DNA from: Candidatus Eiseniibacteriota bacterium
GTDB taxonomy: Bacteria > Orphanbacterota > Orphanbacteria > Orphanbacterales > Orphanbacteraceae
Assembly (NCBI GenBank): GCA_024276995.1
Contig: JAJRWB010000043.1
Coordinates: forward strand, 1 to 64,000
Direction of reading: 5' to 3'
Length of the DNA stretch: 64,000 nt
Part shown: positions 45,368 to 51,604 of the stretch, piece by piece
Layout of the letters: the number at the start of each line of letters is the position of its first letter
Position numbering within the stretch: position 1 is the stretch's first letter
Notes under the pieces: model-generated
The model's input: only the letters and a program-made list of their open reading frames with translations
Told to the model about the DNA's origin: nothing
Database searches by the model: none
Translations under genes and position numbers: made by a program

Positions 45368-46267
45368 ATGAGAATACGCACAAGCGCGGCCGCGGGGGCG
45401 ATCGCCTTGATCGCACTTTCGTTGCACGCCGCACCGGCGCGTGCCGGCGCCTGGACGCAACCGAAAGATGGATATTACTTCAAGCTCTACGGCAGCTATC
45501 TCGCCACCACAACGGAATTCGACGTGGACGGCAATGAAACGGCGCTCTTCTCGAGGAGCGAAAACCTGACCGACGGCCGCTTTATCGACACGGGTGTGTC
45601 GGCGTACCTCGAGTACGGCCTTTTCAGCAGACTCACACTCGTCGGTACGCTGCCGGTGAAATTCCTCCGCTCGAAGAGGACGGAGGAGTTGATCGACGGC
45701 GGCACGAAGAAGTTCAACGAGACCACCGTCGGGCCCGCCGATCTCACCGTGGGGATTCGCTACGCCCATCTCGTCCGGCCGCTCGCGGTTTCGGTGCAGG
45801 GAAACATCAAAGTTCCCACCGGCTACGACACGACGCCGGGTAACGGCGCCCCCCCTCTCGGCGACGGTGAAGTCGATGCCGACCTGCGGCTCATGGCGGG
45901 AAAATCGCTCTACCCGCTGCCGTTCTATATCACGGGAAGCTGGGGATTCCGTCGGCGCGGCGGCATCTATAACGACGAGTTCTTCTACGAAGCGGAATTC
46001 GGATTCTCCACGCCGGAGTGGCTCGCCAAGGTGGCGCTCGACGTGGTGCAGAACCGGAGCAACCGGATCAACGAAACGACAGGCGGGAGCGGAATCGACG
46101 ATCCTCTCGTGGGGGAACAAGACTTCACGAAGCTGATCATCGGCGTGGAACGCGCTCTCGATGCGACGGCGAAGTTCACCGTCGACGTGATCAGCGTGAT
46201 CGATGGGAAGAACACGATCGCCGGGACGCAGCTGGCGGTGGGGATCTCGTATTCCGGGCGGGAGTGA
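45368..46267 (+). CDS. Outer-membrane porin-like protein
   Basis: 299 residues. Signal peptide (RIRTSAAAGAIALIALSLHAAPARA), then alternating-residue strands of a beta barrel (DGYYFKLYGSYLATTTEFD, SAYLEYGLFSRLTLVGTLPV, LAVSVQGNIKVPTGYDT, PFYITGSWGFRRRGG). It resembles the MetA-phenol-pathway/transporter-like barrel group, but the cargo is unknown. GGAGGAACGA lies upstream of the ATG at 45368. A longer in-frame start at 45023 would span the DUF3179 remnant in another frame and is rejected. The IS relic follows 60 bp downstream. Confidence 0.75.
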   Translation: MRIRTSAAAGAIALIALSLHAAPARAGAWTQPKDGYYFKLYGSYLATTTEFDVDGNETALFSRSENLTDGRFIDTGVSAYLEYGLFSRLTLVGTLPVKFLRSKRTEELIDGGTKKFNETTVGPADLTVGIRYAHLVRPLAVSVQGNIKVPTGYDTTPGNGAPPLGDGEVDADLRLMAGKSLYPLPFYITGSWGFRRRGGIYNDEFFYEAEFGFSTPEWLAKVALDVVQNRSNRINETTGGSGIDDPLVGEQDFTKLIIGVERALDATAKFTVDVISVIDGKNTIAGTQLAVGISYSGRE

Positions 46268-46329
46268 TGGCGCACAGCGGAGCCCCCGTCCCTTGGACGT
46301 CGCTTGACACCCACTCGAATCCGAATGAT

Positions 46330-46354
46330 TGATCTTCCGCCGGAATTGAGGACA
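46330..46354 (+). repeat. IS end-like sequence, copy 1
   Basis: TGATCTTCCGCCGGAATTGA followed by GGACA. Lies just beyond the C-terminal codons of the IS3-family transposase relic, where the element's end is expected. A related 25-bp copy lies at 46825-46849 in the same orientation. Confidence 0.5.
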
Positions 46355-46900
46355 CCTGCTTGCGCCACCTTCCTGCCGGGCTGCATATTCTCGAACTGCA
46401 CTGGGCCGACATAGCCGAGCGACGAATGAATCCGAATCGTGTTGTAGAAGCACGCGATGTAGTCAGAAAGGTCCGCTCGTGCTTCCTCCCGCGTCCTGTA
46501 TCGCGTCTGATAGGCGGCCTCGCCATTCAAGGTCCGGAAGAAGCTCTCCATCACCGCGTTATCCCAGCAGTTTCCCCTACGGCTCATGCTACAGCGAATC
46601 CGGTAGTGCTTCAGGAGTTTCCGGTAATCGTCGCCGGCAAATCGGCAGCCTCGATCCGAATGATGCATCAGCTCCGGACCCGATCTTCGGCTGCCGAGGG
46701 CCGTCCGAAGGGCATCGACTACGATTTTCTTCTTCAGCCGCCGGCTCATCGACCAGCCGACCATGTGGCGCTAATACAGATCGAGAACACACGCCAGGCA
46801 CAGCCAGCCCTCGCCGGTCTGCAGTGATTCTCCCCCGAATTGGTGGACACCGCCTGATCGGCCTCGATGTTCGGTGTCAGTGGTTTCCCGCGAGGATGGC
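46335..46900 (-). pseudogene. IS3-family transposase remnant
   Basis: C-terminal integrase part of an IS3-type OrfB. Reading down the minus strand: TGEGWLCLACVLDLY, an in-frame TAG (46771-46773), RHMVGWSMSRRLKKKIVV, then HHSDRGCRFAGDDYRKLL (second catalytic Asp), NCWDNAVMESFFRTLNGE (catalytic Glu) and CFYNTIRIHSSLGYVGPVQFE. The stop probably replaced a Ser codon (TCG to TAG). The 5' half with OrfA, the helix-turn-helix and the first catalytic Asp is missing. The relic cannot transpose. Confidence 0.8.
46825..46849 (+). repeat. IS end-like sequence, copy 2
   Basis: TGATTCTCCCCCGAATTGGT followed by GGACA. Matches the sequence at 46330-46354 at about 20 of 25 positions if a one-base shift is allowed, and in direct, not inverted, orientation. 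It lies inside the transposase relic just upstream of TGEGWL, pointing to a second, deleted IS copy. Confidence 0.4.
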
Positions 46901-48529: not shown

Positions 48530-48890
48530 ATTGCGCGGTCTGCTGCGCTCGATATGGCTCGATTTTTTTAGGGATGGAGTCGCCTGTAGCGGTCCAGGCG
48601 AACGGTCGTGATCAGGGATTGTAGTTGCCGACGAATCGCTCGACGTTGACGATGAGATCGGCCACGCCACGGAAGGTCCCATGTCGGATAGCTTCTTTCG
48701 TGATGATGTTGAACCAGATCTCTACTTGGTTCATCCACGAAGCATAAGTCGGAGTGTAGTGGGTGTGGTGGCGCGGCCGTGCCGCGATCCAGCGGCGAAC
48801 AAGGTGTGGTCCCGTGACGGACATAGACGTGAGTAACACCTTCCACATTACCAAGGCCTGTCGGGAGCATCGGTTCCGTATCTCTGTGGC
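48530..48890 (-). pseudogene. IS630-family transposase remnant
   Basis: Two pieces of an IS630 transposase abut. DTEPMLPTGLG, EGVTHVYVRHGTT (48876-48805) is followed, in another frame, by HLVRRWIAARPRHHTHYTPT, YASWMNQVEIWFNII (from 48809). The middle of the protein, with one or more catalytic Asp residues, is deleted exactly at that junction. Further on, an in-frame TGA (48612-48614) splits GNYNP from SRPFAWTATGDSIPKKIEPY. Both defects make it inactive. The remaining DNA of the gap up to 48992 holds no gene. Confidence 0.8.
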
Positions 48891-48992
48891 CCCGAATCCA
48901 GAACCAGACAAGACCGCAACATCTTACCCTCCTCTCCGGTCGGTGAAAGGAGGACCGGCCCGCTGCCGAGTTCCCCCTCCGGTCGATCACGG

Positions 48993-50879
48993 CTAGATCA
49001 TTCTCTTCGTGACCACTTTCACCGTTCGCTCGCGGCCGTTCCGTTCGACGCTGATCTCCACTTTTGCGCCGTCCTTCTTCATCGTCTCTCTGCATCGTTC
49101 GAGGTCATCGGCGCCCACCGCCTCTCCGTCGATCGCCCGCACCTTGTCGCCAGCGAGCAGTCCCGCCTTCGCCGCCGGTGATCCGTCGAGAACGGAACGG
49201 ACCACGATCCCTTCCGGGTCGCCGCCGTCGAGCACGAAGAGTGCGCCGAGCATGTCCTGTTCGAACGGTTCGCCGAAGGCGCCGTTCTTCTCCAGGATCA
49301 ACCGTCTCCCCTCGTAGTCGATCACCATGTCGAAGCGCCTGAGGATCTCCGTGCCGATCACGCCGGCGAAGGAGAACGTTCCCAGGGCGCCCCCCCTGTC
49401 GGTGGAGAAACCGGCCACCGGCCGATGAAGCACGAATCTTCCCATGCGAAAACTCGGGATCCTCCCGAGAGCGCCGCGCGTCTCCCCGCCGGCGCCGAAT
49501 CCGAGAGGCGCCTCGAGCGTCTCGTCCACCACGGAGAGGATCCGGTTCGACTCGATGAACTTCCTGTTGATGGTGAGCTGGCCGCCGTGGCCCGTGTCGA
49601 CGAGAAACGATCCTTCGAAGCGGCGGAAGTCGGGTGAATCGTGATCGCCCCATTCGAGGGAGCCGTAGATGAGCGGGTGCTGCTGATCGATGGTGATCGA
49701 CAGTTCGTCGCCGGCGCCGCGGTATACGTAGCTCTCCGGGTCGAGGAGGCGCAGCCGCCGGTGCGAGAAATCGATCTCCACTACGAAGCGGCTGATGAAG
49801 TTGTATCCGAGAATGCCGTACCATCGCTCGCCGGTGTATTCGCGGAACGGCGCGAGGGAGAGCGTGGCGAAAAGCTGATCGCCGAGATGCGCGCCGGGCA
49901 GTGTGATCGAGTCGACTTCGGCGAGAGAGAGTCGGAGCGTTTCCTCTCCCGCGCCCATCCCCTGCACGCTCCCGCGCATGTGAAGACCGAGCTTCGCCGC
50001 CCAGTCGGCGTCGAGCACCGACATCTGCGCGCCGGTGTCGAAGACGAACGGCACCGGCTGCGACCCGTTGATCGCCACGTCGAGAAGGATCTGGTTTCCC
50101 ACGAGACGAAACGGGATCAGCGGTGACGAAGCGCCCGAATCGAATCGACCTCGCGTGGCGGTTTCGCGGGGCGTCTCGAAGAGGGTATCGACGATCTCCT
50201 CGTTCATGGAGATCTCCTCCACCGTGGAGGTGGCGTACAGTTCGCCGTCATCGGTCCACTGGGTGGTAACAAAGGGGAAGAGAATCCCGTCCACGCTTCT
50301 CCAGTCGCCGTAACGGATCGTAATCGCCCTCGGGTCGTCGGGCATGATCGAAGAGAGGGGGAGAGCGGTGGCGCGATCGATCCGGAAACGGACCGCCGCT
50401 CCGCCGGTGGGAACGAATTCCACCATTTCCACCTTGCGCGAGCCGGCCGACTCGATGATTCGCGCCATCCCTTCGATCCGGTCGACGAGGAGGTGTGAGA
50501 ACGCGCCGATGTACGTCGCCGTCCGCTCCGATCTTCCCTCGTCTCCCGTGAGATCGGAGCGCTTCCCGTTCGGCCCGACCATGCAGCATCCGTCGGGCGT
50601 GCACACGGTGAGCGTCGTATAGATGCCGAGATCGAGGTCGGTGCGGCGCCGCCCGTCGGCGGTGACCCACTCCTCGATCGTCCCCTCGAGACCGGCGGCG
50701 ACCACGCGGCAGCGCGTGTGGATCATCCGCACGGCGCGAAGCTTCTCCGCGCCGCCGAGCGCTTCCGCCCACCGGCGAACCGTCTCGTCCGCGTTTTTCT
50801 GCTCGGCGTGGAGCGAAGGCGCGCCCGCGATCGCGAGGGCACCGAGAAGGGCGGCGCCGAATGCGGTGCGGCGGATCAT
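48993..50879 (-). CDS. Exported tandem aspartyl-protease protein with PDZ domain
   Basis: 628 residues with a signal peptide. Residues about 28-230 look like a LolA/outer-membrane-lipoprotein-sorting-like domain. Two retropepsin-like units follow: the first has FDTGAQMS (281-283) and ends GILGYNFISRFVVEIDFSHR (355-374); the second has VDTGHGGQ (428-430) and ends GVIGTEILRRFDMVIDYEGR (506-525). A PDZ domain closes the protein (545-625, SPAAKAGLLAGDKVRAIDGE). The two units look like an internal duplication giving both catalytic Asp residues in one chain. The start at 50879 overlaps the glycosylase stop (ATGA). Confidence 0.85.
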   Translation of the reverse strand: MIRRTAFGAALLGALAIAGAPSLHAEQKNADETVRRWAEALGGAEKLRAVRMIHTRCRVVAAGLEGTIEEWVTADGRRRTDLDLGIYTTLTVCTPDGCCMVGPNGKRSDLTGDEGRSERTATYIGAFSHLLVDRIEGMARIIESAGSRKVEMVEFVPTGGAAVRFRIDRATALPLSSIMPDDPRAITIRYGDWRSVDGILFPFVTTQWTDDGELYATSTVEEISMNEEIVDTLFETPRETATRGRFDSGASSPLIPFRLVGNQILLDVAINGSQPVPFVFDTGAQMSVLDADWAAKLGLHMRGSVQGMGAGEETLRLSLAEVDSITLPGAHLGDQLFATLSLAPFREYTGERWYGILGYNFISRFVVEIDFSHRRLRLLDPESYVYRGAGDELSITIDQQHPLIYGSLEWGDHDSPDFRRFEGSFLVDTGHGGQLTINRKFIESNRILSVVDETLEAPLGFGAGGETRGALGRIPSFRMGRFVLHRPVAGFSTDRGGALGTFSFAGVIGTEILRRFDMVIDYEGRRLILEKNGAFGEPFEQDMLGALFVLDGGDPEGIVVRSVLDGSPAAKAGLLAGDKVRAIDGEAVGADDLERCRETMKKDGAKVEISVERNGRERTVKVVTKRMI

Positions 50880-51604
50880 CGTTTCCCGCGCCGGGTGATC
50901 GCCGCCGCCCCGGCGATACGGCGCGCGGCGTCGCGGAACACCGCGCGAAGCATGGGCTGCGTCAAACGTCCGGTGAATGTGTTCTGCTGGCTCGGGTGGT
51001 ACGAGGCCAAGAGGAACGGCGCCCCGGGGGGATCGATCGCGGCGCCGTGGCCGAAGTGGAAGGCACGCGCGGCACCGGCGTCGAGCCACTCCCTCCCCTT
51101 GTAGAACCGTATCGTGGCGTCGAAGGCGAGCTTTCCCAGGGCGACGACCCCTTTCAGCCGGCCGAGCGTGTCGAAGGTGCTCTCGAGATGGCCGGCACAC
51201 CGGCGGAACTCCTCTCCCGTCGGCCTGTTCCCCGGCGGCGCGCAATGGACCGCCGCGGTGATCGCCGCCCCCTCGAGAGAGAGACCGTCATCGGAAGCGG
51301 TCGATGTCGCCGAATCGGAAAAACCGGTCTCGTAGAGCGCCCGGAAGAGGAAATCCCCCGAGCGGTCTCCGGTGAACATCCGCCCCGTCCGGTTCGCGCC
51401 GTGGGCGCCGGGCGCGAGCCCCACGATGAGAAGCCGGGCGCGACGATCACCGAAGTTCGGCACCGGCTTTCCCCAGTACGCCTCGTCCCGGTACGCCGCT
51501 CGCTTCGTGGCGGCCACCTCGGCGCAGTAAGCGACCAGTCTCGGGCAGCGCGCGCACGAGATGATCGCCTCGTTCGCTTCGTTCCATGCCGATCGTCCCG
51601 CCAT
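50876..51604 (-). CDS. udgB: Uracil-DNA glycosylase, family 5 (UDGb)
   Basis: 242 residues. It removes uracil and related deaminated bases from DNA. Motif 1, GLAPGAHGANRTGRMFTG, lacks the usual catalytic Asp or Asn, as is normal in family 5, and motif 2 is SYHPSQQNTFTGRLT. Cys residues typical of the iron-sulfur cluster in this family are at CARCPRLVAYC and further on (CAPPGNR, CAGHL). Start is the ATG at 51604. It overlaps the protease gene by four bases, an odd pairing functionally. Confidence 0.92.
   Translation of the reverse strand: MAGRSAWNEANEAIISCARCPRLVAYCAEVAATKRAAYRDEAYWGKPVPNFGDRRARLLIVGLAPGAHGANRTGRMFTGDRSGDFLFRALYETGFSDSATSTASDDGLSLEGAAITAAVHCAPPGNRPTGEEFRRCAGHLESTFDTLGRLKGVVALGKLAFDATIRFYKGREWLDAGAARAFHFGHGAAIDPPGAPFLLASYHPSQQNTFTGRLTQPMLRAVFRDAARRIAGAAAITRRGKR

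Follow-up and report, generated by a model that had tools for sequence, protein, structure and literature searches.

A predicted one-chain, two-unit aspartic protease with PDZ and LolA-like domains from an Eiseniibacteriota bacterium

Could two retropepsin-like units, joined in a single bacterial chain, come together in the way that the two lobes of pepsin do? The question is raised by a gene in the window, the 64,000-nucleotide stretch of contig JAJRWB010000043.1 (Candidatus Eiseniibacteriota bacterium) that was analysed, for which the original prediction was an exported, one-chain aspartyl protease made by tandem duplication. The 628-residue translation is free of internal stops, and the gene and its parts are placed as follows.

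48993..50879, minus strand: whole gene, 628 aa; one-chain, two-unit aspartic protease with PDZ domain, assigned from translation, Pfam and model
50808..50879, minus strand: signal peptide, probably Sec, aa 1-24; read by eye, with a lower-confidence helix at 2-18 in the model
50145..50807, minus strand: LolA/LolB-fold front domain, aa 25-245; from its own model and structure matches
49710..50129, minus strand: protease unit 1, aa 251-390; PF13650 at 267-361, hhalign, model
50037..50039, minus strand: putative catalytic Asp of unit 1, D281 (DTG); conserved in 28/28 of an alignment of 28 proteins
49899..49979, minus strand: glycine-rich hairpin of unit 1, aa 301-327, a candidate flap; model strands 301-308 and 314-327
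49797..49817, minus strand: hydrophobic-hydrophobic-Gly motif of unit 1 (GILGYNF), aa 355-361; G355 28/28, G358 24/28
49278..49709, minus strand: protease unit 2, aa 391-534; second PF13650 stretch, hhalign, model
49596..49598, minus strand: putative catalytic Asp of unit 2, D428 (DTG); 28/28 in the alignment, 61/61 in a set found by HMM
49461..49520, minus strand: glycine-rich hairpin of unit 2, aa 454-473, a candidate flap; model strands 454-462 and 465-473
49341..49364, minus strand: hydrophobic-hydrophobic-Gly motif of unit 2 (GVIGTEIL), aa 506-513; G509 27/28, G506 24/28
49008..49244, minus strand: PDZ domain, aa 546-624; PDZ_2, PF13180, E 2.1e-11 at 549-622

The product is probably exported, the export signal having been judged by eye. 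The PDZ domain that had been predicted was recovered by Pfam, as listed.

The two protease units are similar in organization, each featuring a DTG, a glycine-rich hairpin and a hydrophobic-hydrophobic-Gly motif. The D-T/S-G and hydrophobic-hydrophobic-Gly pattern of PF13650 and clan AA is thus found in each of them. In the alignment of 28 proteins the hairpin glycines are frequently retained, both in unit 1 (G309 21/28, G311 18/28) and in unit 2 (G462 21/28, G464 20/28, G465 24/28). Pfam analysis of the whole protein reports Asp_protease_2 (PF13650) with an E-value of 1.1e-20 and 74.6 bits, the cut-off being 24.3, in two stretches; scored separately, the units reach 56.5 and 25.0 bits, both above the same cut-off, and PF13975, RVP and Asp_protease are also matched at E up to 1. 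Two retropepsin-like units with their own DTG (D281 and D428) are therefore present as predicted, and so are the matching unit endings quoted earlier, GILGYNFISRFVVEIDF and GVIGTEILRRFDMVIDY. Comparison of separate profiles of unit 1 and unit 2, obtained by splitting the 28 proteins, gives an hhalign probability of 99.6 and an E-value of 1.3e-24 over 129 columns at 18% identity, which is far past chance and upholds the proposed tandem duplication; on this profile evidence the two units are a true repeat. Having two units per chain, the protein differs from the homodimeric retropepsins of the A2 or RloA type, which have one.

Another origin for a two-lobed chain would be the acquisition of a pepsin (MEROPS A1) gene from a eukaryote, to which the pepsin-like overall arrangement described below (Z about 18) lends some appeal. 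We regard this as extremely unlikely. No match to the A1 family, by which membership through descent could be claimed, was found by Pfam at E up to 1, the families reported being PF13650, PF13975, RVP and Asp_protease; kin of the protein occur in many bacterial phyla; and its units are still alike in sequence, whereas the pepsin lobes are reported to share only two motifs (PMC2761423).

The AlphaFold2 model of the protein, for which the input comprised only 26 sequences, has a mean pLDDT of 91.2 and a pTM of 0.88. A Foldseek search of the PDB returns 9IY9 as the first match (E 5.4e-12), followed by pepsins. Upon re-alignment to the model with VIA-align, 9IY9 gives a Z-score of 24.3 and an rmsd of 2.9 Å over 268 residues, while pepsins, renins and plasmepsins give Z-scores of 17.4-18.4 and rmsd values of 3.4-4.0 Å over about 250 residues. 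Among PDB sequences, too, the two-unit profile matches 9IY9 best (E 8.2e-22), in an alignment that runs through both units; a search of the PDB with the single sequence retrieved, among the matches listed, PDZ-bearing chains only. The pepsin superposition is a single rigid body spanning both lobes (model residues 248-534), which would bring the DTG loops together as in pepsin. The model thus supports the facing of the DTG loops of units 1 and 2, which had been proposed as a check of the prediction, and it has the arrangement of a one-chain, two-lobed aspartic peptidase, in which the Asp residues would lie together. The likeness to the pepsin design is accordingly carried by a confident model, but the suggestion that this design was reached independently is not supported as it was put, both proteins belonging to clan AA.

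It is also conceivable that pairing is intermolecular, each unit meeting its counterpart in a second chain or joining through a domain swap, to give a multi-chain enzyme. Single-unit relatives such as RloA are indeed homodimers (PMC12239564), and swapping would be compatible with a one-chain model. We nevertheless consider inter-chain pairing very unlikely, given that the confident one-chain model superposes on one-chain pepsins and on 9IY9, and that the divergence of the units to 18% identity, together with the asymmetric DTG threonine of the relatives (see below), suits a fixed pairing of unit 1 with unit 2.

For the front domain, which had been described as LolA-like, Pfam yields nothing above the cut-off in the window protein, and in one relative (L036) LolA_like scores 25.7 bits, below the cut-off of 30. 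The fold is nevertheless of the LolA type. Modelled alone, the domain has a pLDDT of 85.4, and this model matches 3BK5 with a Z-score of 17.1 and an rmsd of 4.0 over 201 residues, in agreement with the original description. The DUF1329 structure 4Z48 follows with a Z-score of 16.3; matches to LolB and LolA mostly have Z-scores of 10-14 (12.5 for LolB 8CM1), and those to RseB/MucB about 7. Placement in the LolA/LolB superfamily is therefore by fold, a curated Pfam match being absent. LolA and RseB have hydrophobic or unfolded ligands.

Relatives were collected in two ways. A scan of a genome collection with two search patterns, both lying within unit 1 and derived from a three-row alignment, yielded 44 loci in many phyla. 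The bacterial loci include Eiseniibacteriota, Zixiibacteriota, Myxococcota, Acidobacteriota, Armatimonadota, Planctomycetota, Bacteroidota, Actinomycetota and Alphaproteobacteria, and archaeal loci were found in Thorarchaeota and Bathyarchaeota. With our own unit model, at least two units are read in one frame at 40 of the 44 loci, the exceptions being L063, where the second unit is partial, L065, which is cut by the contig end, and L067 and L069, with one unit per frame. Both in 26 aligned proteins and in a second, overlapping set of 28, the sole invariant columns are D281, G283, G355, D428 and G430. Since the search patterns were confined to unit 1, the conservation seen in unit 2 is not a product of selection by the search.

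The second collection came from an HMM search, which matched 66 of 290 genomes at E <= 1e-10, single-unit matches included; in one phylum 28 of 47 genomes were matched at E <= 1e-20, a frequency which suggests a common type of envelope protease. Loci from L075 onwards form this HMM-found set; they were obtained by a profile search that contains no DTG pattern, and the window's own gene is among them. There are 65 two-unit frames in the set, and in the 61 for which both motif columns are readable both Asp residues are retained (61/61, by reading of HMM columns). Loss of these residues in homologues, which would have spoken against the prediction, is thus not seen, either here or at D281 and D428 of the alignments. 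Among 70 different frames from L075 onwards, classified with our own HMMs, 32 combine the front domain, two units and PDZ, so that the architecture of the window protein is a common one. Of the other two-unit frames, 18 lack the front domain, four lack the PDZ and 11 lack both; five frames have a single unit. The window protein is a member of a large, scarcely studied class, and no one-off. Two of the pattern-scan loci carry additional frames: at L028 (G022:C31) two adjoining long frames with protease units lie in one genome, and at L055 a second, degenerate two-unit frame begins at about 6022 on the plus strand, downstream of the canonical one, with motifs that read DL- and DTW. The latter is possibly an inactive paralogue.

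The motifs of the two units differ in a systematic manner. In the 61 two-unit frames, unit 1 reads DTG in 43, DSG in 16 and DNG in two; unit 2 reads DTG in 27 and DSG in one, with a hydrophobic residue in place of the threonine in the remaining 33 (DVG 19, DLG 9, DAG 2, DMG 1, DLA 1, DCA 1). Replacement of the DTG threonine by a hydrophobic residue therefore occurs in 33/61 for unit 2 compared with 0/61 for unit 1, with a Fisher's p of 5.6e-13 if kinship is ignored; the DVG form is likely to be one clade. Pattern-scan loci with an altered unit 2 threonine are L034 (DIG) and L046 (DLG). An asymmetry of this kind is one that only a fused chain can carry.

Some of the relatives in which the unit 2 threonine is replaced may be weak or inactive, and the loss of this residue in 33 of 61 relatives would also suit a different role for the whole protein: a protease-shaped binding protein that keeps the fold and both Asp residues and does not cleave; its LolA-like and PDZ parts would then help it to act as a receptor or chaperone of the envelope. 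A precedent can be seen in PE_PGRS16, which has the fold and in which the authors of the structure saw no activity, according to PMC6819658. We judge this reading unlikely, if less so than the two alternatives above. Every aligned relative keeps the Asp and Gly of both motifs, although the remainder has diverged to about 20% identity, and the window protein itself has the canonical DTG twice and both hydrophobic-hydrophobic-Gly motifs.

The reading that we favour is that of an exported, cell-envelope aspartic endopeptidase, probably a one-chain pseudo-dimer with D281 and D428 as its pair. It is proposed that units 1 and 2 of a chain fold together as a covalent pseudo-dimer, so that one catalytic pair, D281 and D428, is formed beneath the glycine-rich hairpins; pepsin and tethered dimers of retroviral protease are arranged in this way. 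The Asp pair would activate a water molecule, as expected from the families to which the units belong, and the hairpins would act as flaps. The LolA/RseB-like front domain is a probable binding site for a hydrophobic ligand, a lipoprotein or an unfolded chain, and would probably serve in localising or gating the enzyme. The PDZ domain probably holds the exposed ends of substrate proteins, as in the DegP or Ctp proteases; such docking of substrate ends is summarised for HtrA, Ctp and RseP in PMC6411480. The likely job of such an enzyme would be the processing or quality control of envelope proteins.

When and how often the units were fused was approached through trees of individual units. In a tree of all 56 units of the 28 proteins, the unit 1/unit 2 label requires 4 changes, compared with a mean of 19.1 upon shuffling; the separation is not clean, and long branches include L055, L074, L046 and L041. 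A second tree, of 40 units, was built from 16 chosen proteins of those 28 together with L057, L058 and L070, leaving out L042, L046, L048, L049, L053, L054, L055, L056, L062, L066, L072 and L074 as long or divergent. In this chosen subset, 14 bacterial proteins representing at least seven named phyla have their unit-2 rows united in one clade (100/100), indicating that the fusion is old; six archaeal units form another (99/98), within which first and second halves can be told apart, and a third (91/88) is made up of six actinobacterial units. The AU test did not reject a single origin with the archaeal units (p 0.265) or with the actinobacterial units (p 0.105). A clade of all unit-2 rows with one origin was considered and dropped; it is not clean in the 56-unit tree.

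In all 28 proteins, each unit scores higher against the same-position unit elsewhere than against its own partner, so the duplication in the window protein is not recent. By the unit phylogeny that had been called for, the duplication is not special to the window protein: it is old and common to many phyla. The plain reading of the 40-unit tree hints at one old bacterial fusion, with separate archaeal and Actinomycetota fusions. The archaeal proteins, from Thorarchaeota and Bathyarchaeota, are bare two-unit chains of about 260-310 aa with no obvious signal peptide, encoded by the following genes.

L050:4959-5774, plus strand: archaeal two-unit gene
L052:1424-2248, plus strand: archaeal two-unit gene
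L070:88-1029, plus strand: archaeal two-unit gene

In Actinomycetes, L058:4875-6632 (plus strand) encodes a 586-aa protein with four units in one chain, whose motifs are DTG, DSG, DTG and DTG. Taken together with the threonine asymmetry, these trees allow a broader proposal, which is tentative and which we hold less probable than its converse: that the proteins form a large, unnamed prokaryotic class of one-chain retropepsins in which fusion took place more than once (in the main bacterial group, in Thor- and Bathyarchaeota, and in an actinobacterial line leading on to four units), repeating the step taken by pepsin; that the fixed chain would have freed the second half to drop a threonine which homodimers must keep; and that the class may record stages of lobe specialisation erased in pepsin.

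The protease gene had also been described as coupled to a gene for a uracil-DNA glycosylase (UDG), which lies directly upstream.

50876..51604, minus strand: uracil-DNA glycosylase superfamily gene; PF03167, E 2.7e-25

The UDG gene overlaps the start of the protease gene by four bases, ATGA. Searching loci L001-L074 by tblastn places a UDG gene directly upstream also in L031, L032 and L035 (of which L002, L003 and L005, respectively, are second copies), at 58-63% identity, and did not find one adjoining the protease at the other loci tested. Judged by the ORF coordinates and the sequence at the junction, L031 and L035 retain the ATGA overlap, and L032 has a similar TTGA. The pair is confined to four genera, all in the family of the window genome, and can be read as a stable operon of one lineage. 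The coupling is real as an arrangement of genes, but it is only weakly indicative of a functional link, the other loci tested lacking the pair. Such a link was dropped from consideration: the pair is limited to one family, and DNA repair in the cytosol would be an unlikely partner in function for a protease that is exported. On the other side, just downstream of the protease gene, an insertion-sequence remnant lies at 48615-48899 (minus strand): a transposase fragment that matches DDE_3 (PF13358, E 2.4e-8) over no more than profile positions 85-145. An integrase-core transposase (rve_2, rve_3, rve) is found at 45985-46764 (minus strand).

Pepsin is the standard example of a dimeric protease that was duplicated and fused, and in the present protein the halves still align from end to end. 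One-, two- and four-unit relatives coexist, and half of one sample shows the asymmetric change in an active-site loop. With halves that can be aligned, relatives of one, two and four units, and this asymmetry, the old problem of the path from homodimer to specialised one-chain enzyme can be put to the test in bacteria.

The closest structural counterpart, 9IY9, is the solved crystal structure of a 'putative endopeptidase' ('Exported protein') from Bacteroides fragilis, released on 2025-08-06. It likewise has two units in one chain with DTG in both, as seen in the printed alignment. It differs in having 18% identity to the window protein, with a front part that is aligned only partially, and the sequence match stops near the end of its 420-residue chain, so that a C-terminal PDZ is not evident. 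In the open-licence PMC literature, no paper mentioning 9IY9 was found, nor any report of activity or functional paper on two-unit relatives, nor a description of the architecture of LolA fold, two units and PDZ, of possible repeated fusions or of the asymmetric loss of the unit 2 threonine. A 2019 survey (PMC6411480) describes a family of PDZ-containing aspartate proteases ('AP'), with 49 proteins from 48 organisms, labelled as uncharacterised. The window protein shares with that family the presence of an aspartyl protease domain and a PDZ in one bacterial chain; two units per chain, a LolA-like domain and a pepsin-like pseudo-dimer are not mentioned in the portion of the survey's text consulted (PMC6411480).

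PecA is a bacterial, one-chain clan AA protease with DTG and DSG which is active on the cell surface, and the C-terminal domain of PecA/PE_PGRS16 (4EHC) resembles the window protein in being exported, in one chain, with an aspartic protease fold and with DTG and DSG at one putative cleft (both from PMC6819658). One aligned relative of the window protein also matches PF20729, a further likeness to PecA/PE_PGRS16. In contrast, the latter are mycobacterial PE proteins of a different Pfam family. We know of no PDZ or LolA-like part in them. The pepsin family A1 (pepsin, renin, cathepsin D, plasmepsin and the bacterial shewasin) has the same two-lobed, one-chain fold with one Asp per lobe, but the window protein is without an A1 Pfam match and its units are shorter; as judged from the model and from conservation, it would also have a glycine-rich hairpin in both units, compared with the one flap of pepsin. 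Single-unit bacterial retropepsin-like proteases (RloA, RimB, APRc) and Ddi1 have the same unit fold with one unit per chain, and APRc and Ddi1 are matched by the two-unit profile. Prior knowledge covers the family to which the units belong, bacterial one-chain proteins of pepsin-like fold (9IY9, PecA/PE_PGRS16 and the shewasins) and the PDZ-aspartate proteases (PMC6411480).
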